Origin: an uncultured Bacteroidota bacterium
GTDB lineage: Bacteria; Bacteroidota; Bacteroidia; UKL13-3
Reading direction: 5' to 3'
NCBI GenBank assembly: GCA_903883965.1
Contig: CAISCU010000040.1
Coordinates: forward strand, 1-33,389
DNA: 33,389 nucleotides
The notes beneath the pieces are model-generated. The model made no database searches, was not told the origin of the DNA, and worked only from the letters and a program-made list of their open reading frames with translations. The position numbers and the translations under genes are program-made. This document shows, one piece after another, positions 20,442 through 33,260 of the stretch. The first letter of the stretch is position 1. Every line of letters starts with the position of its first letter.

Positions 20442-20556
20442 TGTTGCTGCGCTGTTCTGGGGCTCAATATCGTTAAAATGCGCCGAAATGGAAACAGGTA
20501 AAGTGCATGAGCGCCCATTGCTTCAGGTTCAGGCAAAACACAACACCACCCTACAT

Positions 20557-20640
20557 TTATTTGCCAAGAAGCATATAGGTAGATGGGCTGCATTGCGCAA
20601 ATTTACGAGGCGCTTGAATGGGATAATCAACAGATTCGAT
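20557..20640 (-). pseudogene. 3'-end stub of a paralog of the 163-aa secreted protein (repeat copy R1)
   Basis: On the minus strand this stretch reads, in frame to a TAA at 20559-20557, DYPIQAPRKF, then AQCSPSTYMLLGK. The intact gene at 21728-22219 ends DYQIAIKAPRKF, then AQCSPSTYMPLGK. The 41-nt core (20564-20604) is nearly identical to R2 (21124-21164) and R3 (21735-21775), but the sequence differs just upstream. It is therefore a diverged paralog end, not a simple copy. Nothing upstream of about codon 28 from the end is preserved. It lies in the promoter region of umuD. Confidence 0.8.
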
Positions 20641-20666
20641 TGATTCTCATATTAAGGGGATTGAAA

Positions 20667-20720
20667 TTATTTTAATTCCCAACCTGATTTTATGAAGAAT
20701 GTTTTACAAAAGTTTGAAAG
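20667..20720 (-). pseudogene. 3'-end stub of a second archaemetzincin gene
   Basis: Read on the minus strand this ends FCKTFFIKSGWELK and TAA at 20669-20667. The intact archaemetzincin at 22351-22998 ends CKTFLIKSGWELK and TAA. Similarity continues ~25 nt past the stop codon. Only about 17 codons remain, and then the sequence changes abruptly to the half-element at 20719. Together with the stub at 20557-20640 it preserves the same gene order and strand as the intact pair further along, so the whole pair was once duplicated. Confidence 0.8.
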
Positions 20721-21107: not shown

Positions 21108-21123
21108 ATTCTTTTTTAATTTC

Positions 21124-21180
21124 CCAAGAGGCATATAGGTGGTTGGGCTGCATTGCGCAAATTTAAGAGTTAGCGGTCAT
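21124..21180. repeat. Repeat copy R2 joined to cassette core B
   Basis: Positions 21124-21164 repeat the 3' coding end of the 163-aa gene (minus-strand frame KFAQCSPTTYMPLGK) with three changes from R3. Immediately after it comes GAGTTAGCGGTCATGC, a right-border-like core (GTTAGCG). The spacing to R1 is 560 nt and to R3 611 nt, all in direct orientation. The repeat therefore flanks both small gene units in this junction. Confidence 0.75.
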
Positions 21181-21237
21181 GCTATCAAATAGCACACAAC
21201 AGATAATCATCTTGGTAAAAAGGTAGATTTTTCTTAA

Positions 21238-21641: not shown

Positions 21642-21727
21642 CAATAAGCACGAACAGCTGTATGTAAATTCAAAAGGTATCAGCAACCAAGGTTCAAACT
21701 TTCACCAACAGGGGTTTGATATTTTTT

Positions 21728-22219
21728 TTATTTACCAAGAGGCATATAGGTAGATGGGCTGCATTGCGCAAATTTGCGAGGCGCTTTGATGGCAATTTGG
21801 TAGTCTTTGATAAATGCATTGAGCAGTTGCGTAAATTGTTTTTCTCTTGCTGCTGAAGGTTTGTCGGTAGGCTTCCCTAAAAAATTAAACAGAAAATAGT
21901 CAATTGTGCCATCTGCACTGAAATAAATTCGGTTGAAACATTTGGTTGGGCGCTCCCATTTAAAATTGTTTGCACTTAAAAACTTGCCAAAGTCTTGAAG
22001 CAATTTCACATAAGCTTCATATAGGTGTTGTTGTTCTAGTTCGGTTTTAAACACAGCCTCTGCCGAGTCAACATGCATGGCACTTTGGTACATGCTGTCT
22101 AAATAGGGCTGGGTAAGCCCAGTTTTTTCTGCCTCCTGAAAAGTAAGGCCCAAGTGCTGCCCAAAAGAGGGTAAACTCAGCAGCAGCAAAACAAATAACA
22201 AGCTTATGGTTAATTTCAT
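21728..22219 (-). CDS. Secreted 163-aa protein, unknown function
   Basis: A signal peptide (LLFVLLLLSLPSFG, cut before QHLG) precedes a ~143-residue soluble domain. The conserved-looking part is near the C-terminus: CFNRIYFSADGTIDYFLFNF, then REKQFTQLLNAFIKDY and KFAQCSPSTYMPLGK. I do not recognise the family. Two cysteines (about 103 and 153) could form a disulfide in the periplasm. Its last 41 nt are copied at R1 and R2. It lies 131 nt downstream of the archaemetzincin gene on the same strand, and the paired stubs near umuD show that the two genes were duplicated together. Confidence 0.75.
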   Translation of the reverse strand: MKLTISLLFVLLLLSLPSFGQHLGLTFQEAEKTGLTQPYLDSMYQSAMHVDSAEAVFKTELEQQHLYEAYVKLLQDFGKFLSANNFKWERPTKCFNRIYFSADGTIDYFLFNFLGKPTDKPSAAREKQFTQLLNAFIKDYQIAIKAPRKFAQCSPSTYMPLGK

Positions 22220-22350
22220 TGGGTTGGGTTTAAAATGCAGTCAAAGAGCTTGGAGGAAAAGTTGCAGGGGGGAGGGTAAATGGCAGGTATTATTTTTTAA
22301 GCGTCAACATTTCTTTGAGTCGCTTGCTTCTATTATTGAGGCTATTGTAA

Positions 22351-22998
22351 TTATTTTAACTCCCAACCTGATTTGATTAAGAATGTTTTACACTTTAAGC
22401 AAAACTCCTTTTCATCATTTAGATTGTCTTTCCCTTTTGCATCTCTCATCAGGCAGGTTTTTATTTGACCATGTTTCAAACCCTGAGTATGTCCCAGCTC
22501 ATGAATTGCTACCTTAAATAATTTTTCAAGTTTATTCTTCCCTTTCAATCTATAGGAAGAAGCTATACAAGACTTTCCAGGGCAATAACCAAGTCCAAAA
22601 ACACCCCAATCTTTGTTTGTACCTTTGGTTGTACTCATGTCTTTTTGGGTTAAACCTATTGTTAGGAAACCATCTGCAGTTTTGCTGCTAAGGTATCGGA
22701 TCAATGAATCGGCCCTGTATCTTGTTTGGGTTTGATTCAGGGTATGAATAGGAAAAAGTATTGGTTTTCTAATGACTACAGCACCTGCATACATTACCTT
22801 TAATTCATTGGCAATACATTTAGTGAATGAAATTGGAAAGTCTTCAAAAGGCTGAATGACTATCTTAATTTTTTTATTTTGTAATTGACTCGTTTGGCTT
22901 ATTGACTTTGATTCATGATGGTTCTCAGAATTGTTATCCTGACAACAAATGAACATTGACAATAACATAAAAACTTTTACAGTAGCTATCGTTCTCAT
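22351..22998 (-). CDS. Archaemetzincin-like zinc metalloprotease, exported
   Basis: A 215-residue protein with a lipoprotein-like signal (MLLSMFICC, Cys18 or Cys19). The zinc site is HELGH at 166-170, then GLKH with His176, and Met184 for the Met-turn region, as in archaemetzincins (HExxHxxGxxH). The family normally has a second zinc site of four cysteines, C-x4-C and C-x2-C. Here the first one, right after His176, is Gly177, while Cys182, Cys200 and Cys203 remain. The catalytic zinc site is complete, so activity is plausible. Its substrate is unknown. Confidence 0.87.
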   Translation of the reverse strand: MRTIATVKVFMLLSMFICCQDNNSENHHESKSISQTSQLQNKKIKIVIQPFEDFPISFTKCIANELKVMYAGAVVIRKPILFPIHTLNQTQTRYRADSLIRYLSSKTADGFLTIGLTQKDMSTTKGTNKDWGVFGLGYCPGKSCIASSYRLKGKNKLEKLFKVAIHELGHTQGLKHGQIKTCLMRDAKGKDNLNDEKEFCLKCKTFLIKSGWELK

Positions 22999-23084: not shown

Positions 23085-23152
23085 ATTCCTATTGCTATCG
23101 GGATGATTTAACCACTACACCGCCAATTTATTGCAGGTACTGTTGTTAGCGC
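23085..23152 (+). repeat. Half copy (D) of the cassette-border element
   Basis: TTTAACCACTACACCGCCAA, then TTGCAGG and CTGTTGTTAGCG, resemble the right half of the complete elements and are closest to copy A (CACCGCCAATT, GTGTTAGC). I find no clear left arm in 23030-23085. The final core overlaps the stop codon of rluF (23146-23148). This could be a decayed border between the archaemetzincin unit and rluF. Confidence 0.4.
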
Positions 23153-24021
23153 CTACCTGATCTGCGTGCAGGTTTGCCTTTTGTATTCCTGTTAAAATTG
23201 TACGAATGACCCTGTACAGGTTTTTTTGAACCAGATTTTTTGGGTAGCTCTGGTTTGCCTTTTTGAGTGGGCTTTTGTGACTTTGTTTTTCTTTCATCTA
23301 CACCTGATGATTCTTCCAGCAAACTGAAAATGATCTCCATTTCTCTTTTGGTTAAATCTCTCCAATCTCCAACCGGTAAGCCTTTCAAATCAATATTCAT
23401 AATGCGAACCCGTTCCAGTTTAATGACATCATATCCAAAATGTTCACACATTCTGCGAATCTGACGGTTGAGCCCTTGTATCAAAATAATCCTAAAGGTA
23501 TTTGCTGATTCTTGAACAACCTTACATTTTTTGGTAGTAACACCAAGTATGGGAACGCCATTTGCCATACCGGTAATCACATTTTGGGTTAAAGGCTTGT
23601 TCACTGTTACAACATATTCCTTTTCGTGATTGTTTCCGGCCCGTAAAATCTTGTTTACCATGTCGCCATTGTTGGTTAAAAAGATGAGTCCCTCTGAATC
23701 TTTATCCAAACGGCCAATAGGAAAGATACGTTGGCTGTGGTTTACATATTGTACAATGTTATTGCGCACATTTTCTTCGGTTGTTGATGTTACACCAACA
23801 GGTTTATTCAATGCAATAAAAATAATATCATCGCCTTGTAATGGTTGCAATTTGTTGCCATTTACTCGAACGCTGTCACCTACATTCACATGATCTCCTA
23901 TATTGGCTCTGCGTTCGTTGATGAATACAACGCCTCTTTCAATAAAACGGTCGGCTTCTCGCCTGGAGCAAAGACCGCTTTCGCTAATAAATTTATTGAT
24001 GCGCATGGAACTTTGTTTCAT
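23146..24021 (-). CDS. rluF: 23S rRNA pseudouridine synthase RluF
   Basis: RluF converts uridines of 23S rRNA (around 2604/2605) to pseudouridine. The 291-residue protein has an S4 RNA-binding domain at about 7-60 ([20 protein letters not shown]) and the catalytic motif [10 protein letters not shown] with Asp106. It also has HEKEYVVTV and [20 protein letters not shown], which favour the RluF/RluB branch. Residues ~240-291 form a basic, disordered tail rich in K, P and R, common in Bacteroidota homologues. It lies between border elements D and E, but as a housekeeping gene it is probably a neighbour of the island rather than cargo. Confidence 0.9.
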
Positions 24022-24046: not shown

Positions 24047-24190
24047 CCCTGTAATGGTTTGGGGCTTTGCGAAGATGGTATTTTTTAATACAAATATTGC
24101 TGCAGAGAACTAAACTTTGATTCACCACAGATGTGTCATACGAAGTACAACAACTAACACTATGCCAAACCGATACTTTTCTGTTCTTTA
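24047..24190 (+). repeat. Cassette-border element E (degenerate)
   Basis: This has the same layout and orientation as the elements at 26025 and 31664: GGCTTTGCGAAG at the left, ACAAATATTGCTGCAGAGAAC, then ACTTTGATTCACCACAGATG, then ATGCCAAACC and CTGTT at the right. The arms pair mainly through GGTTTGG (24056-24062) with CCAAACC (24165-24171). Pairing elsewhere is weak and the outer cores are eroded, so this looks like the oldest copy. It runs up to the stop of hipT. Confidence 0.7.
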
Positions 24191-25120
24191 TCATTTTAGA
24201 AGTTCTATCCTTTCCAAAACCATTTTTTTAAAATCGTTTTTATGTTCCGTAGGCAGAAAAGAATGATCAATCCACCAATTTAATTGTGTTAACCTATCAA
24301 TAATTAAATTGTAGCAATTCTGAATTTGTTTTTCTGTCAACTGTAAATTAAAACCTAAGGCATCAAAGTCCTTCCTTGAAATTTTATTTTTCTTACCATT
24401 TACATTCAAACTCATTTGCTCGGTTTCGTCTTTTATAACAAGATTCGTGCTAACTAAGTCATATGCAGGACTAAGGCAAAATGTCCCATCTTTTTTCTCA
24501 ATCATAGAAATATTTTTTAGGTGCATATCTGCATTACCCGAAATGAAACTAAATAATACCAATTGAAAATAATGCAAAATATCCAATCCAGACTGTGTTG
24601 AATATTGATTGATAGTTTTGCCAATTTTTTCGTAGCTACCTCTGTATTTATGTTCTGTAAGTGTTTCTGTAAGTTGACACAAGTCTTCGCAAGCTATTTT
24701 GTTTGTTTTTTCTCGGTCAAATCGCTTTGTCATGTAAGCAAGTTTTCCGCTCTTTAATCTCACCAAACTATGTATTGCTACTTCAATTCCTAATTCATTT
24801 GCAAGGTGCATACACAAGTCCTCATTTTCAGGTAAACATAAATAAGTTTCACTTTGAGGTTTGATGATGTAGTTGCTTTTATCATCAACAATTGTAAATC
24901 GGATACTTTTTTTTGTTTCTTCAAGCCATAAACTTAGTTTTGGTTGAACACCAGTTATAGCAGTGTTTGCACCAATAATTTTCTTTGCGTAATCACTTAA
25001 TTTATTTTCGTCAATATCAAATTCTGGCATTTGTTTTAAGCCAAAAATACTGGCTATACACTTCTCGTGATAGTCAGTTTCTTGTAGCGTTAACGGTTTA
25101 TAGCAAATTAAACAATTCAT
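24191..25120 (-). CDS. hipT: HipT-like serine/threonine kinase toxin (HipA C-terminal domain)
   Basis: This is the kinase core of a split HipA toxin. In characterised HipA/HipT systems such kinases phosphorylate aminoacyl-tRNA synthetases and stop growth. From the ATG at 25120 it is 309 residues. A short zinc-ribbon-like start has Cys3, Cys6, His18 and Cys21. The ATP loop is ITGVQPKLS at 55-63, the ATP-binding Lys87 is in YIIKP, the catalytic Asp198 is in GNADMHLKN and the metal Asp221 is in SPAYDLVS. All are intact. I chose this start because it lies 5 nt after the hipS stop. An upstream ATG at 25159 would overlap hipS. Confidence 0.9.
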   Translation of the reverse strand: MNCLICYKPLTLQETDYHEKCIASIFGLKQMPEFDIDENKLSDYAKKIIGANTAITGVQPKLSLWLEETKKSIRFTIVDDKSNYIIKPQSETYLCLPENEDLCMHLANELGIEVAIHSLVRLKSGKLAYMTKRFDREKTNKIACEDLCQLTETLTEHKYRGSYEKIGKTINQYSTQSGLDILHYFQLVLFSFISGNADMHLKNISMIEKKDGTFCLSPAYDLVSTNLVIKDETEQMSLNVNGKKNKISRKDFDALGFNLQLTEKQIQNCYNLIIDRLTQLNWWIDHSFLPTEHKNDFKKMVLERIELLK

Positions 25121-25125
25121 TGTTT

Positions 25126-25440
25126 TTAGTTTTGAATAATAGAGATATCGCCTATACAATCTTTACAAAGTGTTAGCAAAAGGCTCATGCGGTTTCTTGG
25201 GTTAAGTTTCCAATTTTCAACTGCTATTTGTAATAGCCAACCTTCGGGAATTAGTCCATCAAAGAAGGGCAACATTTCATTGCTTGTAAATACTTCTTGG
25301 CGCAACGGCAAAGTTCTACTTACGTCTCCATAAATAGGATTAGACAAATAGTCTTTATGGTATTGAAAAGAATAGCCATTGTCATCTTCCCATATCAAAC
25401 CCACCAATTTGTCTTTTTTATAAACCAATCCTTGTTTCAT
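25126..25440 (-). CDS. hipS: HipS-like protein (HipA N-terminal subdomain)
   Basis: A 104-residue stand-alone version of the N-terminal subdomain of HipA. Typical segments are YGDVSRTLPL, EMLPFFDGLIPEGWLL and LLLTLCKDCIGDISII. In the E. coli O127 HipBST system the equivalent small protein HipS acts as the antitoxin of the kinase HipT, while HipB boosts it and binds DNA. The gene sits 11 nt after hipB and 5 nt before hipT, in the order B-S-T. Which protein neutralises the toxin here is inferred from that system. Confidence 0.85.
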   Translation of the reverse strand: MKQGLVYKKDKLVGLIWEDDNGYSFQYHKDYLSNPIYGDVSRTLPLRQEVFTSNEMLPFFDGLIPEGWLLQIAVENWKLNPRNRMSLLLTLCKDCIGDISIIQN

Positions 25441-25451
25441 TACTAATTCAT

Positions 25452-25883
25452 CTATTGATTTTCGATTGAGAAGATATCTGAATGATTAATTATTTCAGTC
25501 AGTTTATCATCGGGTTTTTGTTGAAATTGTATGGCGTTATTGTTTGGGACGAATTTCCAAGCATCAATTTTGTTTTCTTTTTTGTTTATCATTTCCTGTA
25601 CAATAATGCCATATTTAACTACTTTATTGAACAATGTAATTTTTACACCTTTGTTCAGATAATTCCAAAATATGTCATAAGGGTCAATTTGTTGTTTGTT
25701 TGGGGTTAGTTGAAAGCCAAATAAATGAAGTACCTGTTCAACTTTGTCTAATTGCAGACTTTCCTTACCCTGTTCTAACTCACGAATAAAGCGAATGCCT
25801 ACACCCGCTTTTGTTGCAAGCTCTTCTTGGGTGATGCCAAGTTTTTTCCTTTGAAATCGGATAAATGACGACAGATTGTTCAT
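25452..25883 (-). CDS. hipB: HipB-like HTH protein with C-terminal extension
   Basis: A 143-residue protein. Residues ~4-60 form an XRE-type helix-turn-helix (FIRFQRKKLGITQEELATKA, then RELEQGKESLQLDKVEQVLHLFGF), as in HipB. The other ~80 residues (DPYDIFWNYLNKGVKITLFN and beyond) are unusual for HipB and I do not recognise them. It is first in the hipB-hipS-hipT operon and probably represses it through the repeated sites directly upstream. The C-terminal extension could be a binding surface for the kinase, but this is unproven. Confidence 0.85.
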   Translation of the reverse strand: MNNLSSFIRFQRKKLGITQEELATKAGVGIRFIRELEQGKESLQLDKVEQVLHLFGFQLTPNKQQIDPYDIFWNYLNKGVKITLFNKVVKYGIIVQEMINKKENKIDAWKFVPNNNAIQFQQKPDDKLTEIINHSDIFSIENQ

Positions 25884-25890
25884 TATATTA

Positions 25891-25986
25891 TACCTTTACG
25901 GGTACAAATATAGTAAAAAACTAAATAAACAAACCGTTCGGGTATAAAATATGAAGAAAGTGCGAATCTCGTCCTTTTCGGGTATA
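25891..25986 (-). promoter_or_regulatory. Three evenly spaced probable HipB operators
   Basis: CGGGTA occurs at 25899-25904, 25939-25944 and 25979-25984, exactly 40 nt apart, each preceded by CC and a T-rich stretch (CCTTTA, CCGTT, CCTTTT). The copy nearest the gene is a dyad, TACC, 6 nt, GGTA. The spacing of about four helical turns puts the sites on one face of the DNA, as expected for an autoregulating antitoxin. The hipB start is 8 nt away. Confidence 0.6.
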
Positions 25987-26024
25987 ATGATTGGATTTTT
26001 TTTGGTTTGATATTGAAGGATTGC

Positions 26025-26166
26025 TAGTAAGGGGTTGAGGACTTTGCGAAGGTGGCGATTTTCACCAAAAATGTTGATGCGGAGAACCAAACTTTGATGA
26101 ACCACAAATGTGTCTGAGGAGCACTGAACCGCCACTTTTGCCAAACGCCTGTTGTGGGTTCGTTGT
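26025..26166 (+). repeat. Cassette-border element F
   Basis: A nearly identical sister of element H: TTTGCGAAGGTGGCGA (26043-26058) on the left pairs with CCGCCACTTTTGCCAAA (26129-26145) on the right. The centre has the two unit copies CACCAAAAATGT (26063-26074) and AACCACAAATGT (26100-26111), each followed by TGCGGAG or TGAGGAG. The right core is CTGTTGTGGG. The left core is eroded. It lies between the 3' end of the AAA ATPase and the hip operators. Confidence 0.85.
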
Positions 26167-26175
26167 TTACATACT

Positions 26176-27624
26176 CTAATTTTGATTCTTCATTTTCAAT
26201 GTTATGTCTCCAATATTATAACTATATATTGAAGCTGGTAAAAATGAAAATAATAAACCTTCTATTTGCTTTATTCCTAGTTGGTCTATTGATGTTACTA
26301 AAGCATTTTTAAAATTGTTGCTTTTACAAAAACGTATTAAACTTTTTAATTCGTTTGGTTTTTCAAAATATCGATTACTCCATTTTATCTCAACACCCCA
26401 TTGAGGCTTATATTTTTTATCATCAACTAATACTAAGTCTACTTCACCTTCATTTCTTCCTTCTTTCCATCGGGCATAGGTTAGATCTAATTTTTCTCTA
26501 TGCATCCATTGCGATAACACTGCTGTTTCCACCATATTTCCCATTTCACTGTCTGTTTCACTAATTGGTGAAAATAAGGCTGTCCGCAATGATGGATTTG
26601 TCAAGTACACCTTGAAGCTAGTTATTCGTTTTAGTCGTTTTGCTGTTACGTCAACTTTGTTTAATACTTTGATTAAGAATGCAGCTTCTAAATATTCTAG
26701 GTATTTTTTCAAAGTGTCTTTTTGTATACCACTTTCTTTACTCATTGTTTCATAAGAAAATTCATTCCCAGTATTGTAGGCTATGTATGTAAAAAATCGG
26801 TTTAACTCTTGTACGTCTTTTATCCCGTATAAGCTTGGTAAATCTCTAAGTAATACTTTATCTACAATATCGTTTTTTACGTAACGTCCCATATCACTTT
26901 GTATCTTATCACTTAAAACAACTTCAGGGTAGCCACCGAAGTTTAAGTAATGTACAAACTCTTTATTTAAAGCCTTTATATCGTGTGAAAGACAATACGG
27001 TATTTGATTTTCTCCATAGCTAATTTCTCCATTGTACATTAAGTGGTTCATTTCCTTGAGATGAATGTATTCCTGAAATGTAAGTGGAGGTAACATAAAA
27101 TCTGTAAATCTACCCGCTCCACTTTCCGAGCTATGCCATTTTAATGCTGCTGCGGCTGAACCTGAAACAATAAATTTTGTTTCAGGAAATGAATCAACTA
27201 ACACCTTAAGGTGGCGTTCCCAATCTTTCAGGTATTGTATTTCGTCAAAAAAAACGTAGCAACCTTTTAGATTGTCTTGATTGAGTGATTGCTTACATAA
27301 ATTTAAAATGTCTTCTAAACTTAACTGCACATAAATAGGGTTGTCTATGCCTATGAAAAATATTTTTTGCGGATTTACATTTTCAGTCAATAATTGTTGA
27401 ATGCTGTGAAATAACATTACAGTTTTTCCAACACGTCTTGGCCCCATAAGAACCAATGCTCTTTTTACATTTTTTTCAATTACAAATGGATAAAACAAGT
27501 TAAAATATAGTCGCTTGGCCATTGCGCTATACACTTCAGGTATTTGTTTGTTAACCCACCAAGGATTTTCATACCGTAAGCGTGCTTTTATTTTTTCTGT
27601 TGGAATAAGACTTATACTGCCCAT
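26176..27624 (-). CDS. AAA ATPase with DUF4143 nuclease-like C-terminus
   Basis: A 482-residue protein of the AAA_14/DUF4143 type. Walker A is GPRRVGKT at 61-68, Walker B is YVFFDEIQ at 123-130, then sensor SGS at 154-156 and GAGR at 169-172. A winged helix follows at about 286-320. The DUF4143 part has EVD at 394-396 and EIK at 412-414, a PD-(D/E)xK-like arrangement, so a nuclease activity is possible. The function of the family is poorly known. Here it stands alone between border elements F and G, beside restriction and toxin-antitoxin genes, which makes a defence or conflict role plausible but unproven. Confidence 0.85.
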   Translation of the reverse strand: MGSISLIPTEKIKARLRYENPWWVNKQIPEVYSAMAKRLYFNLFYPFVIEKNVKRALVLMGPRRVGKTVMLFHSIQQLLTENVNPQKIFFIGIDNPIYVQLSLEDILNLCKQSLNQDNLKGCYVFFDEIQYLKDWERHLKVLVDSFPETKFIVSGSAAAALKWHSSESGAGRFTDFMLPPLTFQEYIHLKEMNHLMYNGEISYGENQIPYCLSHDIKALNKEFVHYLNFGGYPEVVLSDKIQSDMGRYVKNDIVDKVLLRDLPSLYGIKDVQELNRFFTYIAYNTGNEFSYETMSKESGIQKDTLKKYLEYLEAAFLIKVLNKVDVTAKRLKRITSFKVYLTNPSLRTALFSPISETDSEMGNMVETAVLSQWMHREKLDLTYARWKEGRNEGEVDLVLVDDKKYKPQWGVEIKWSNRYFEKPNELKSLIRFCKSNNFKNALVTSIDQLGIKQIEGLLFSFLPASIYSYNIGDITLKMKNQN

Positions 27625-27778
27625 AAAATCATTTGTTTTTACAAATTTAGATAAAATAGATAGATTTTAACCTACTTATTTTTTACTTTTATGTAATTAT
27701 AAGAAGTTTATTACCTAATAACTCATCCATTTTATCGATTTCAAGTAAGTCAGTACTCAGACGGTTCGTATTAAAATG

Positions 27779-27934
27779 ACGCACAACGTTTTGCAGCTAC
27801 CCGAAGGGCGGGACTTTTAACACAAATGTTGATTTGAAAAACTAATGTTTGATTAACCACAAAACTGTCTTTGGAATACGAATTGAAAATCAGCGAAGCT
27901 AAATCCCGCCTTTTGGGTAGGTGCTGTTATGCGT
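27779..27934 (+). repeat. Cassette-border element G, long imperfect palindrome
   Basis: This is the best folded copy. ACGCACAAC at 27779-27787 pairs with GTTATGCGT at 27926-27934. AGCTACCCGAAGGGCGGGA pairs with TCCCGCCTTTTGGGTAGGT (27904-27922), with an unpaired GTTTTGC at 27788-27794 on the left arm. The centre has ACACAAATGTTGAT and TTTGATTAACCACAAA, shared with elements E, F and H. The arm sequence, however, is quite different from theirs. It separates mcrC from the ATPase gene. The remaining 27625-27778 contains nothing I recognise. Confidence 0.85.
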
Positions 27935-27981
27935 TCGGGCTTCTTTCTCTATCGTTAATTTTCTGTCTGAATTCGATGTTG

Positions 27982-29322
27982 TCATTGAAGTAATTTGTTT
28001 AATTGTGTTTCAATAGTCTCATATAACATTGAGTCTAATTCGTTAAAATTTGTCAATGATGAAAAAGGAATCTCCATCGCTGTTATTGTTATTTCGTCTG
28101 CTCCACCAAACCCTGAAATAATTTTAAAGTTGTCTGATGCATTTAGGTCATCTGCAATGTTTGGGTAAACTAATATTATATCTGTGCAACCTCTCTTAAA
28201 AGCATAACTAACCATTTGATAAAGGTCTGATTGTGCTACACCTTTTTTTGGGTCTGTTTTGAAATTGTCTTGGCGTAATTTGTATTTAGTGTCAATGATA
28301 ACTTTTCGTTTTGAACCATGTCTTGCCGTAAGAAATATGTCATGTTGCATATTGAATACTCTAGGTATATTTGACAAGTATTCGTCTGATTTTTGATATT
28401 CAATTTTCCAATCTTTTGAAAATTTGTTTTCTAAGAACCCTGCAAGAAAATCTTCAAAAATATATTCCATTGGGAAAAGTAAACACCATTGAGAAAGGTC
28501 ATATGTATTACTTGAATAGAGTTGTTGACTAAGGATAAGTTTGCAACTGTTAAGTAGATTAGTGTAATCTGAAAAGAAGGTATTTAGGGAAATGTTTTCA
28601 ATGTCGTGAATAGTGCAATGTAAATCCTCAACTTCGTCTAGGATGAATACAACATCTTGAAGCATTCGCAAATTTTCTGAAAACTTTGTTTGCTTCATCA
28701 ACAACCGTGAACAATATTTAATTACTCTGTTTACTTTATTGTCAAACAGAAATGGTTCATAGTCACATTCAATATTTTGAAAATTTCCGTGTGATATACT
28801 ACTGCTTAAATACCGTTTGAAATTTATTGAACCTCTTGGAGTAATTAACGCTTCCTCCACTTCTTGATACATAGTCAAAGGTTGCTTTGAAACAGTTTCT
28901 AAAAACTGATTTGCTATTAAGTTTATAATCAACTCTGGGAATTCGTTAATGTCAATTGTATCAAGAGAAGCTTGATTAAAAGGGAAGTTCCATTTACGAC
29001 AATAGCTAAACCAATAAAAGATGTGGCGAAGCATCAACATCTTTTCATTCTCGGATGGGTTTGGTAAATGTTGTCGAAATACTTTTGGGTAAATCTCAAT
29101 TACTTCATCTCCGTTTTGAATGAAACCAACAAAATTGTTTGCTCTTATTTGGTTGTCGTCAAACTGTAGGAATGGTTGATAATGATTGTCTGTTTCAGCT
29201 TCTGTTAATTCAGAATCTGTTTCAACAAACATGCGTTGCTTCCAAATGCCTTTCAACATTTGGTGTAAAGCATTTTTGTCTTTTATGCTCTGCCATTTTC
29301 CGTATTCAAAAAGTAGAGCCAT
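27982..29322 (-). CDS. mcrC: McrC-like nuclease subunit of type IV restriction
   Basis: McrC is the endonuclease that, driven by McrB, cuts modified (methylated or otherwise marked) DNA. The 446-residue protein has the N-terminal FVGFIQNGDEVIEIYPKVF and a C-terminal PD-(D/E)xK nuclease with Asp328 (MQHDIFL), Asp344 and Lys346 (IIDTKYK), followed by QSDLYQMVSYA. All are intact. Its start is 1 nt after the mcrB stop, so they form one operon, as is usual. Confidence 0.94.
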   Translation of the reverse strand: MALLFEYGKWQSIKDKNALHQMLKGIWKQRMFVETDSELTEAETDNHYQPFLQFDDNQIRANNFVGFIQNGDEVIEIYPKVFRQHLPNPSENEKMLMLRHIFYWFSYCRKWNFPFNQASLDTIDINEFPELIINLIANQFLETVSKQPLTMYQEVEEALITPRGSINFKRYLSSSISHGNFQNIECDYEPFLFDNKVNRVIKYCSRLLMKQTKFSENLRMLQDVVFILDEVEDLHCTIHDIENISLNTFFSDYTNLLNSCKLILSQQLYSSNTYDLSQWCLLFPMEYIFEDFLAGFLENKFSKDWKIEYQKSDEYLSNIPRVFNMQHDIFLTARHGSKRKVIIDTKYKLRQDNFKTDPKKGVAQSDLYQMVSYAFKRGCTDIILVYPNIADDLNASDNFKIISGFGGADEITITAMEIPFSSLTNFNELDSMLYETIETQLNKLLQ

Positions 29323-29323
29323 T

Positions 29324-31606
29324 TTATCTTTGTGAAATATCCCAAATGAAATTTGTTGTATCGTAAGTTACATTCCAATTGGTGTCTGCAAATATTTTTG
29401 AAACGATGTCTGTTTTGCCTGAAAAATATTCCATCAATAGGGGGACAACTTTGTTTTTCAAAACAATTTCAATTGTTTGACCTTTCATGAAGTAAGCATG
29501 CCCAATCAAATAGTCAGCAGATTTTTTTTCCTTGAAAACTGCTTCATTGACTTTTCTTAGTAGTGTAGATTCTTCTTCATTCAACTCTTCGTAATCAGGA
29601 TAATAACCAATGAACTCAAATCTTCTCCTTAAAGCAATATCAATTAAAGCAATAGACTTGTCTGCTGTATTCATTGTGGCGATGATGTAAAGATTTGGCG
29701 GAACGCCAAATTCTTTTTCTCCATTCGGTAAAGTAATTTTCAATTCGTTCTCACCACCCAATCTTTTATCATCTTCAAGTAGCGTAATCAATTCACCAAA
29801 CACTTTTGAAATGTTTGCCCGATTAATTTCATCAATAATCAGAACAAAATTTTTCAATTGTTCGTCTGCTGATTTTTGTGGTTCAAGTGTTTCAGCAAAC
29901 TCTTTTAAATGTTCTACAAGTGGATTGTAGTAAACTCCCAAACCCTCAACACCATAATCTAAGCTGCCTTCGTAAATCGCTTTGAGATTCTTTACAAGCA
30001 AGTCGTGTCCTGTTCCTCCGCTTTGTTTAGTAAACTTTATTCTTCCCTCATCAACGTCAATTTTAGTTATTTTAAACTTGTAACCTTTGCTCTTCATGGG
30101 TATTTCAACCTCCTTTACTTCTTCTTCAATCAACTTTGAAAAGAAAGTATTGAAAACAAAATTGAAGTCAATTGTGATTTCTTTTTTGTTAGTTGTTGCA
30201 ATCCAATTTTGTTTTGCTCTTTCTGATAACAGCTTGAAAATACCTTCTCGTTTGTCAAAACGTAAAGTTCCAGATGTAACATCGGGAGAAATCCCAACTA
30301 CAAAATCTTCATAGGAATAATTTTGGTGGAAAGTAACGAACTCAATTTGCCCAGCCTTTCTTAATTCGTCAAAAATATTTTTGTTGGCTGTATGATTGTT
30401 CAGATTAAACCTATCTCTTGAAGCAATCTCAACTGCCTTGTCAATGCTGTTGTAAGTCTTTCCTGTTCCAGGTGGTCCGTAAAGGATTATATTTTTTGGT
30501 TGCATTTCTTCTGTGTTTTCTGATTCTCTAGAATCTTTGATTAAATCGTAAATAGTTTTGTATTCCTTTTTTGTTGCAGAAAAATTTGTTCCTTGATTTC
30601 CAACTTTTAAGTTTTCTAAGCCCTTAGTCCCTTTTATTTTAATCCAAAGCAATGGATTGTCAATTATGTTGTGAGTAATTTTTATACCTGCCTTAATTGG
30701 ATTTTTATCCTCTGTTTTCCAAAGATGTGAATCTTTGGAGTTCGAAATATTATGCGGTTCACTTGTTATTTCGGCAAGGGAATAACAACCAGAATTTTTT
30801 CCTGAAATCCATAAAATTACTTTGTCACCAATTTTGATTTTATCTTTGTGAGCAGATACTGTCCAATCTTCAAGCAAGTTATTTCTTATCGCTGTTTCAA
30901 AATCAAATGCGTTTGGATTGCCTTGAAAAATCCAGTAGTTAGAATTTCTGTTGTTCCATAAGTCAATAACTCTTTGTTTGACTTTCGAATCTTGAACTTT
31001 CCGAATTCCTGCTTGAAGTTGATAAGTGAATCTTTCATCTTCATCTAATTCGTACCATTCAACATTGGAAATATTAATCCAATCTTCAAAGGGAATATTT
31101 AGTGACTCAAATGGCTCCTCAAATTGTTTGGTTTTAGTTACCAATTGAGGGGATTCTAAAATTTTAGCGATTGACATTGCATTAAAACCTTCGGTTACCA
31201 GTATTAAATCACCAACTGCATATTTCTTGTCTTCAACTCCAACTACAATTTCATTCTCTTTTATTAATTCATAGAAACTTGGATTACCCTTGTCCCAGTT
31301 ACAACCTAATTTCCAAATGTTACCAGTAATTGGTTGTTCATTCAAAATTGAATCTGATTTACTTTTGATTTGAAAACCTAGAGCAGTAAAATATTTGTTG
31401 GTTGGTTCACCACCACTCCGTTCCCAAATATGTTCACCATTCATTAACTCGTGAGCATATCGCATTACTTCTTTAGGTGGGTAGGCTTTGCCATTAACAA
31501 TTACATCAAACCTTGTCGAAGGTTCTAGAGGGATAGACTCGCTGTCTATTTTCTTGACTGCGTCAAGTACATGCTGTTTAGTTATTTTGTCTGGTTCAAA
31601 AGCCAT
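29324..31606 (-). CDS. mcrB: McrB-like GTPase with two N-terminal reader modules
   Basis: A 760-residue AAA+ motor that recognises modified DNA and powers McrC. Residues ~1-85 resemble the DNA-binding head found at the start of ScoMcrA-like proteins. Residues ~93-215 are a region I cannot name. Residues ~222-355 look like an EVE/PUA-like domain (NYWIFQGNPNAFDF, KIKIGDKVILWISGKNSGCY). The motor has Walker A GPPGTGKT at 377-384, Walker B LIIDEINRA at 589-597, the McrB GTPase signature MNTADKS at 645-651 and arginines in ALRRRFEF. An EVE domain suggests that bulky modified cytosines (5mC, hmC, glucosylated) could be the target. That is inference. Confidence 0.93.
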   Translation of the reverse strand: MAFEPDKITKQHVLDAVKKIDSESIPLEPSTRFDVIVNGKAYPPKEVMRYAHELMNGEHIWERSGGEPTNKYFTALGFQIKSKSDSILNEQPITGNIWKLGCNWDKGNPSFYELIKENEIVVGVEDKKYAVGDLILVTEGFNAMSIAKILESPQLVTKTKQFEEPFESLNIPFEDWINISNVEWYELDEDERFTYQLQAGIRKVQDSKVKQRVIDLWNNRNSNYWIFQGNPNAFDFETAIRNNLLEDWTVSAHKDKIKIGDKVILWISGKNSGCYSLAEITSEPHNISNSKDSHLWKTEDKNPIKAGIKITHNIIDNPLLWIKIKGTKGLENLKVGNQGTNFSATKKEYKTIYDLIKDSRESENTEEMQPKNIILYGPPGTGKTYNSIDKAVEIASRDRFNLNNHTANKNIFDELRKAGQIEFVTFHQNYSYEDFVVGISPDVTSGTLRFDKREGIFKLLSERAKQNWIATTNKKEITIDFNFVFNTFFSKLIEEEVKEVEIPMKSKGYKFKITKIDVDEGRIKFTKQSGGTGHDLLVKNLKAIYEGSLDYGVEGLGVYYNPLVEHLKEFAETLEPQKSADEQLKNFVLIIDEINRANISKVFGELITLLEDDKRLGGENELKITLPNGEKEFGVPPNLYIIATMNTADKSIALIDIALRRRFEFIGYYPDYEELNEEESTLLRKVNEAVFKEKKSADYLIGHAYFMKGQTIEIVLKNKVVPLLMEYFSGKTDIVSKIFADTNWNVTYDTTNFIWDISQR

Positions 31607-31663
31607 TATTATTTTCTTTTTCTGTCGTATTTTTTATTATGTATGGTCGGCTTTTAGCCTGAC

Positions 31664-31797
31664 GCATAACGTTTTCGGGCTTGGCGAAGGTGGCGATTTT
31701 TACCACAAATGTTGATGCGGAGAACCAAACTTTGATTAACCACAAATGTGTCTGCGGAGCACTGAACCGCCACTTTTGCCAAATGACTGTTACCTGC
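31664..31797 (+). repeat. Cassette-border element H
   Basis: The outer core GCATAAC at 31664-31670 faces GTTACCTGC at 31789-31797. The inner arm TTGGCGAAGGTGGCGA at 31681-31696 pairs with CCGCCACTTTTGCCAA (31767-31782) with two G-T wobbles. The centre holds two direct copies of a 21-nt unit at 31702-31722 and 31739-31759 that differ in three adjacent bases: ACCACAAATGT, then TGA or GTC, then TGCGGAG. They are separated by TTTGATTA. A small extra hairpin, GTCGGCT (31646-31652) with AGCCTGAC, lies between it and the mcrB start. Confidence 0.85.
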
Positions 31798-31809: not shown

Positions 31810-33260
31810 TTATTTGATATTGGAAATAGTAATTGTATTCTTCTGGTTGTCAATAATGATTTTCCCGTATTTACTTAGAGCACTCTGTCCAAAAAGAAGA
31901 GGTGCTGTTTTATTATTTACAACGGATGCTGATACATTTTTTAAAACCAAACCACCAAATTCCACTTTCCTTAATATTATTTTCGTTCCGATTTCTATAT
32001 CCCCATTAGCATCCATGTAACGTTGATTCGAGCCAATGTCTGTTGAATTTAAATATCCATTTTTGAGCATAAAAAGTGCTTCGGTTTGTGAAATGGAAAT
32101 GTCACTTGCACCAGTGTCAAAAATGAAGTTTAAACGCAAATCGTTTACCTTACAAGACACCTCATATATTCCAGACCCTTTAGGTGTCATGGGAATTGTA
32201 ACTGTCTCAGCTTTGTTTTCAGTCACACTAGGTTTCTGATTGGCTTCCTTTTTTAATGACTCATCAAAGTTGGTTCTCCATTCTTGAACAAGGTTCTTAA
32301 ACTCAGGCATATTTCTGATATTATCCAAATCATCATCAATAGATAAATGGACAAAATCTCTATACCCTTTTGTAAATGCAATTTTCAAATTTGATAAAGC
32401 CTCTGTTGAATTATTCATTAATGAATACAAACATGCAGCATCATAGTAGTTTCCTTCATTGGGGTATTGCTCTATAATTTTATCCAACCATTTTATTGCA
32501 TCATCAATACGTCCTAAATGGAAAAGTGCATACTGTCTACAATTGCCTTGCTCATCAATTGTAGTGTCAATTGATAATATATTTAAATAATCTTCTTTTG
32601 CTTTGTCGGTTTTTTTTAATTGGGATTCATATAAACGCCCTCTATTCAAATATGTGTATACGTATTTGTCGTTTATCGATATAGACTCATTATAGTCATT
32701 CAGTGCTTCTCCAAACTCTTTCAAAAACTCTCTTGTCCAGCCTCTTCTATAATAAAACCAGGACTCTCTTGGTTCAATTTCAACAGCTTTGGTGAAGTCT
32801 TGAATCGCACCGGTGTAGTCACCCATCAATCTTTTAGCATCTGCTTTATAAGCATAATTATATGCGTCAGTTGAATCAATTGAAATTATTTCATTATAAT
32901 CAGAAATTGCCAATTCATACATTCCAGAATTTGAATAGCATTTTGCTCTATAAGCTAATAGATCGGGCTTGAAACTTATGTCAGACAATTCTAATACTTT
33001 ATTGTAATCTTTAATAGCTGCAGCGAAATTGTATTTTCCTTCATACAACTGTGCCCTAATAAAATACCAAAGTTCTTTTTCTGGATGGGCAGAAATTTGT
33101 GAATTAACTTTAGAGAGCGACAACGAATAATTTTTTTCAGAATACGAAATAAAAATACTGCGCATTATTTTATCTGAATCGTCTAAAAGAAAAGCATAAA
33201 AAATATCCTCAATGGCATCATTATATTTTTGCAGCTCATAATAATAACTATAATACTCCC
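31810..33260 (-). pseudogene. TPR protein with C-terminal retropepsin-like domain, 5' end cut by an IS
   Basis: The C-terminal ~125 residues are an aspartyl protease-like domain with FDTGASDIS (the Asp of DTG is residue 350 counted from the ATG at 33165), and LLFGQSALSKYGKIIIDN closes the fold. About 270 residues of TPR repeats precede it (RAKCYSNSGMYELAISDYNE, ADAKRLMGDYTGAIQDFTKA). The frame stays open and TPR-like upstream of the internal ATG, reading REYYSYYYELQKYNDAIEDI, up to about 33260. It then runs into sequence belonging to a mobile element and a stop at 33282-33280. The original start is therefore lost. It is on the far side of border element H from mcrB. Confidence 0.8.

Follow-up and report, generated by a model that had tools for sequence, protein, structure and literature searches.

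A probable integron-like gene-capture system in Bacteroidota with attC-like hairpin elements and its own integrase family

The window analysed here, a stretch of 33,389 nucleotides, carries an array of genes separated by palindromic elements, with all genes and elements on the minus strand. Read in gene orientation, the array starts with a TPR/aspartyl-protease gene (31810..33165), its upstream unit, which has its start beyond or near the contig end. It is followed by element E4 (31663..31797), a cassette with mcrB and mcrC (27787..31669 from crossover to crossover, its element included; McrBC and AAA_5/EVE), element E3 (27780..27934), a cassette with an AAA_14/DUF4143 ATPase gene (26031..27786), element E2 (26024..26159), a cassette with hipB, hipS and hipT (24055..26030; HTH_3, Couple_hipA and HipA_C) and element E1 (24048..24184). 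An rRNA pseudouridine synthase gene (23146..24021) forms the chromosomal flank, which is kept in the genomes G001 and G003. These Pfam assignments confirm the gene content given in a preliminary description of this DNA, i.e. hipBST, AAA/DUF4143 and mcrBC units with a TPR-protease gene beyond them. The ATPase also matches the PADLOC candidate family PDC-S01 (E 1e-59). The window also has two other sets of repeats, unrelated to the elements, in the stretch that separates the array from the upstream genes, namely a 66-nt family of three copies (20556-20621, 21116-21181 and 21727-21792; 76-92% identity) and a 76-nt pair (20633-20708 and 22317-22392).

The preliminary description counted four complete elements in the same orientation. 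A repeat search indeed joins the four into one family (99-115 nt, 64-93% identity), and a covariance model of the element (R1), built from 15 relatives, finds all of them on the minus strand with 68-153 bits, but only two can be called intact. These are E4 (152.6 bits), which ends the TPR-protease unit, and E3 (120.7 bits), which ends the mcrBC unit and has a longer loop, giving it 155 nt. E2, at the end of the ATPase unit (132.2 bits), has one good core, its R' core being degenerate (C|TTAC), while both cores are degenerate in E1, the last element of the array, which ends the hipBST unit (67.6 bits). Read in the direction of the genes, each unit carries its element at the 3' end.

The elements form a family, about 135 nt long, whose sequence is strongly conserved and whose hairpin covaries strongly. 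The imperfect palindrome has the form GxxTAAC-AC-GGGTTTGGC-AAAA-GTGGCG, about 65 nt, and CGCCAC-CTTC-GCCAAGCCC-GAAAAC-GTTAxxC. Over the 30 pairs of the hairpin, 129 copies display 637 double-change cells compared with 220 in shuffles, and the covariation score is 0.454, against 0.04-0.07 with the pairing partners slid; fitting the alignment to the model biases it towards the structure, yet the contrast remains large. The spacer between the outer and the inner stem is asymmetric (2 vs about 6 nt), resembling the unpaired central spacer of integron attC sites (PMC2727003). The inner (L) stem of the element does not clearly show the extrahelical bases typical of classical attC sites, and an Rfam search of the array region of the window gave no match. 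For the closed-circle form, the bottom strand is predicted with DNA parameters to be slightly more stable (-35.9 vs -29.7 kcal/mol).

A model search across Bacteroidota, which had been proposed together with the initial observation, reveals head-to-tail arrays of the element in most of the related genomes (48/58). With a single element as DNA query, copies are recovered from 39/58 genomes of the class, many of them 93-99% identical. The strandedness is strict, as none of 86 loci, with 237 elements in total, is of mixed strand, and the spacing within arrays is mostly 0.6-3 kb.

The ends of the elements had been likened to the core sites of attC. The sites are attC-like, but the inverted-repeat partner of an element's right core is the left core of the next element and not that of the same one. 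The start of a unit complements the bases just before the unit's own element over about 15 nt, e.g. GTTACCGCCAATATT...AATACTGGCGGTAAC, and a perfect match of the 6-nt variable core is found between the two ends of 67/122 units, compared with 1.6% of random pairs. The two ends within one element pair only at background level (8/201 perfect cores). In the window, the R' core of E4, GTTATGCG, pairs with the R'' core of E3, CGCATAAC, such that the mcrBC unit reads TTATGCG...CGCATAAC; similarly, the unusual core GTTGTG is common to E3 R' and E2 R'', and the ATPase unit has TTGTG at both ends. Since the ends of a unit are inverted repeats and those of one element are not, it is the unit rather than the element that, judging from the sequences, recombines, crossing over at G|TTA (G|TTR). 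This pairing follows the logic of integrons, where the crossover lies in GTTRRRY between G and TT and the cassette start is complementary to its own R'', and it argues strongly against an element that inserts itself.

The mobility of the units can be followed in several genomes. A 1.31-kb cassette is 94% identical between Flavobacterium denitrificans and a Bacteroidia MAG, with both borders exact. In F. denitrificans it is the first cassette, at the attI-like site discussed below (ACTAG|TTAGTGGCAAGG), and in the MAG it lies within an array (AACCG|TTAGTGGCAAGG); the identity continues through the element and stops at CG|TTATG. One cassette of F. saccharophilum is present in two copies that are 99.7% identical with exact borders. 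Identical cassettes also occur in different orders, again with borders exact at G|TTA. Compared with the array of G001, which belongs to the same genus, that of the window is 95-97% identical as far as the element borders and unrelated past them; the two have hipB in common up to the E2 border and differ beyond it. Single units and empty sites, for which the preliminary description had asked, were also found. In G094 the mcrBC cassette stands alone, GCAGCAG|TTATGTGTC...GAAACCG|ATGTTC, with the insert split over two contigs, and in its congener G415 the flanks are joined contiguously as GCAGCAGATGTTC (86% over 501 nt) and nothing is duplicated, i.e. the site is empty. Classical IntI inserts after the G of GAT at secondary sites, and the insertion in G094, at G|AT, is of the same kind. 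We also considered the homologues of the ATPase unit (89% identical, in G161, with its ends close to the borders of the unit) and of the hipBST unit (84%, in G113) as additional proof of mobility. However, although the homology stops near unit borders, there are no detectable flanking elements in either genome, and the two cases were set aside.

Directly upstream of the arrays and on the same strand there is a gene for a tyrosine recombinase of 345-370 aa, together with an attI-like site, which answers the earlier call for a recombinase that co-occurs with the elements. Mostly in a single copy, this integrase family is present in 38/58 related genomes (E up to 1e-35), the genome of the window not being among them. 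In the set of relatives, some 19 of the 48 element-bearing genomes, the window's own included, have no integrase at the threshold used. At least 564 stretches of the genome collection encode relatives of the integrase, and the best 80 were retained for the work on loci. Within 10 kb on each side, elements lie downstream of the integrase on the same strand in 39/54 loci from these best 80 of at least 564, and upstream of it in 1/54. Matches on the opposite strand near integrases are palindromic shadows of stronger matches, except for one marginal match in L206. Many draft contigs break 100-600 nt past the integrase stop, as expected where variable cassettes start. Two of them, L147 and L151 (the ends of G009:C41 and G011:C14), break exactly at the GTTA of attI, which suggests that the first cassette varied in the sampled population.

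The attI-like site, TATAWRCNAG|TTA (TTR), is located about 100 nt past the integrase stop, and the strict motif is present in 64/79 integrase loci, again from the best 80 of at least 564. As in integrons, the site is beside the integrase gene and the first cassette is joined there: the unit at attI and the R'' of the first element are perfectly complementary in 17/26 loci and match at five or more of six positions in 20/26. Ahead of the site there are repeats, both inverted and direct, with sequences that vary from species to species. At 17/58 sites these include perfect inverted repeats of 9 nt or longer, compared with 1.7% in shuffles, part of the motif being imposed by the search. Within a species, the copies of the repeats, some 70 nt ahead of the attI cut in L171-L250, match one another, as though they were co-evolving with the integrase. 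Systems of integrase and attI are also carried by Chryseobacterium plasmids. On one of them (NZ_CP041688.1, L166:14001-27761), six same-strand elements follow the integrase and attI, the weaker ones being near the threshold; on another plasmid (NZ_CP094530.1, L167:12001-13990), a VOC-family gene starts at attI.

The closest solved relatives of the integrase are archaeal XerA and XerC-like recombinases (PDB 4a8e and 5hxy; E 5e-41, and also by fold), followed by Vibrio IntI4. The integrase scores just over the cut-off of NCBIfam NF040815 (XerA, tyrosine recombinase/integron integrase), and on TIGR02249 it reaches 203-211 bits, under the cut-off of 265. The latter model was rejected as an integrase finder, as XerC/D and other tyrosine recombinases make it respond in nearly every genome; among 395 genomes of the class, a single true IntI is above its cut-off (L068:1219-2448, G172:C40). 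IntI integrases have a specific additional domain around patch III (PMC9668308). In the alignment, the true IntIs have ALERKYP..W.WFWVF or a variant of it at this place, and there is a gap in 19/19 array integrases. In a quick midpoint-rooted tree, IntI forms a separate clade (SH-aLRT 99) and the array integrases are outside it, with other Bacteroidota recombinases. An AlphaFold model based on an alignment (pLDDT 85; the single-sequence model, with pLDDT 43, was discarded) adds a predicted N-terminal domain of about 60 residues with the order beta-beta-alpha-beta-beta-alpha. This domain (residues 1-70 of P0001) contains GARWSxxLKAWHxPDTxENR and is weakly DUF5710-like, the best E value of 3e-4 being below the cut-off. 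One may speculate that it takes part in site recognition. Phages were considered as main carriers and rejected, since the viral relatives are distant (36-48% identity only) and mostly without the N-terminal domain.

The preliminary description saw no recombinase in the window, and none of this system is present there or elsewhere in the genome, which has two Xer genes only. The suggestion of integron-like cassettes served by an integrase from elsewhere is supported, an integrase family lying upstream of the arrays of relatives, but this family is not IntI, and it is absent from the window's genome. That genome has lost the integrase or never had one, which means that its array is a stranded, CALIN-like remnant with one decayed element.

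Taken together, the element family and its structure, the same-strand arrays, the pairing of unit ends, the attI junction, the adjacent integrase, the exact borders in unrelated hosts and the empty site, all read from sequence, make it highly probable (about 0.88) that an integron-like gene-capture system, equipped with an integrase family of its own, has the elements as its attC-like sites. A cassette would consist of one unit and the element that terminates it 3'. The first 15 nt or so of the cassette (TTAxxxxx..) and the last 15 nt or so before the element are inverted repeats that would, in the excised circle, close a long hairpin stem of which the element forms the inner part. The integrase, which probably performs the reaction, would excise cassettes as circles and insert them, with G|TTR as the point of exchange, at the attI-like site or in another element. 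The substrate would be the folded single strand. Repeated insertion would build the head-to-tail arrays, with the orientation of the cassettes set by the asymmetry of the site.

The recombinase could instead be a bystander, with host XerC/XerD or homologous recombination between the repeats acting on the elements. Many arrays without integrase, and the two Xer genes in the genome of the window, would agree with this, and elements that are up to 95-99% identical could recombine. However, homologous exchange would not produce an exact switch at G|TTR, a scarless empty site or an insertion where there is no element, and the integrase gene lies immediately 5' of the arrays, in the same direction, its attI junction matching the first cassette; we regard this option as quite improbable. 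The elements might also be transposon or MITE-like repeats that have inserted themselves between genes many times, being palindromic and present as 93-99% identical copies in different families. Such repeats would be scattered independently on both strands, which is not seen, the ends of one element are unpaired (8/201), and the empty site has no target duplication while the mobile segment is the unit. This makes a self-inserting repeat hardly credible.

A different question is whether the system is a true but divergent IntI integron missed by standard detection. The layout, the GTT core, attI and the cassette borders are all in line with this, as are the TIGR02249 scores of 203-211 bits (cut-off 265) and the name of NF040815, tyrosine recombinase/integron integrase. 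The IntI-specific domain is, on the other hand, missing in 19/19 array integrases, and IntI is a separate clade with 99% support, so that we consider this explanation unlikely. With the integron-like system with its own integrase as the preferred reading, we lean, with some reserve, towards a broader view: a second integron type may have evolved independently, with a XerA-like recombinase that lacks the IntI domain and probably recognises hairpins by its N-terminal DUF5710-like domain, and with a cassette economy across Bacteroidota parallel to that of IntI integrons.

IntegronFinder 2.0 reported one complete Bacteroidetes integron, in Salinibacter ruber, after earlier reports of integrases without cassettes only (PMC9024848); Bacteroidota are listed by name only in PMC8618304 and have no model in the taxon-specific attC set of PMC8352920. 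In the open-access literature we found no description of the present system, subscription papers and preprints being outside that search. Present in dozens of Bacteroidota species, both chromosomally and, in Chryseobacterium, on plasmids, a complete system of integrase, attI and array, with cassettes that carry restriction, toxin-antitoxin and other adaptive genes, would give a major phylum thought to be almost integron-free an added route of gene capture. It also makes testable which part of the integrase is needed for recombination of hairpin sites, because the family lacks a domain held essential. The system may furthermore bear on why xerD adjoins tet(X) genes, a lead only and no answer; whether xerD mobilises tet(X) is left open in PMC7473080. 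On Acinetobacter plasmids (L168:5001-7240, NZ_CP041297.1; L169, NZ_CP104735.1), the xerD neighbouring tet(X3) is 50% identical to the integrase over the catalytic part, residues 109-345, and the start of tet(X3) is cassette-like (CACTTG|TTATGTGCC). Nevertheless, tet(X3) was rejected as a proven cassette of this system, as no significant model match follows it (the best, 11 bits and E 0.04, is located elsewhere) and its integrase is outside the array clade.

The system shares with integrons, such as the Vibrio superintegron and class 1, an integrase beside attI, cassettes arranged head to tail in one orientation and each ended by a palindromic site, and the crossover at G|TT. Its sites resemble attC in folding as hairpins whose loop is large and variable and whose outer and inner stems are set apart by an asymmetric spacer, though with no clear extrahelical bases. 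We do not class it as an IntI integron, because the defining feature of the integrase was tested for and is lacking. The recombinase is outside the IntI clade, has no IntI-specific domain and carries an extra N-terminal DUF5710-like domain. In further contrast to IntI integrons, its gene points in the same direction as the cassettes, the outer pairing reaches about 15 nt, the sequence of the element is strongly conserved, and attI consists of TATAWRCNAG with species-variable repeats. XerA/XerC-like recombinases, which act on dif-like chromosome or plasmid sites, resemble the integrase in sequence and fold (4a8e, 5hxy) but have neither array, attI nor the extra N-terminal domain. The pdif/Xer modules, in which dif-like sites of about 28 bp flank each module, were rejected as a match, the sites here being 135-nt hairpins always in one orientation. 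The array of the window compares best with a CALIN, having four sites, where at least two are called for, in a genome without integrase; these sites, however, belong to the Bacteroidota element family described here, which is likened to classical attC and not equated with it.
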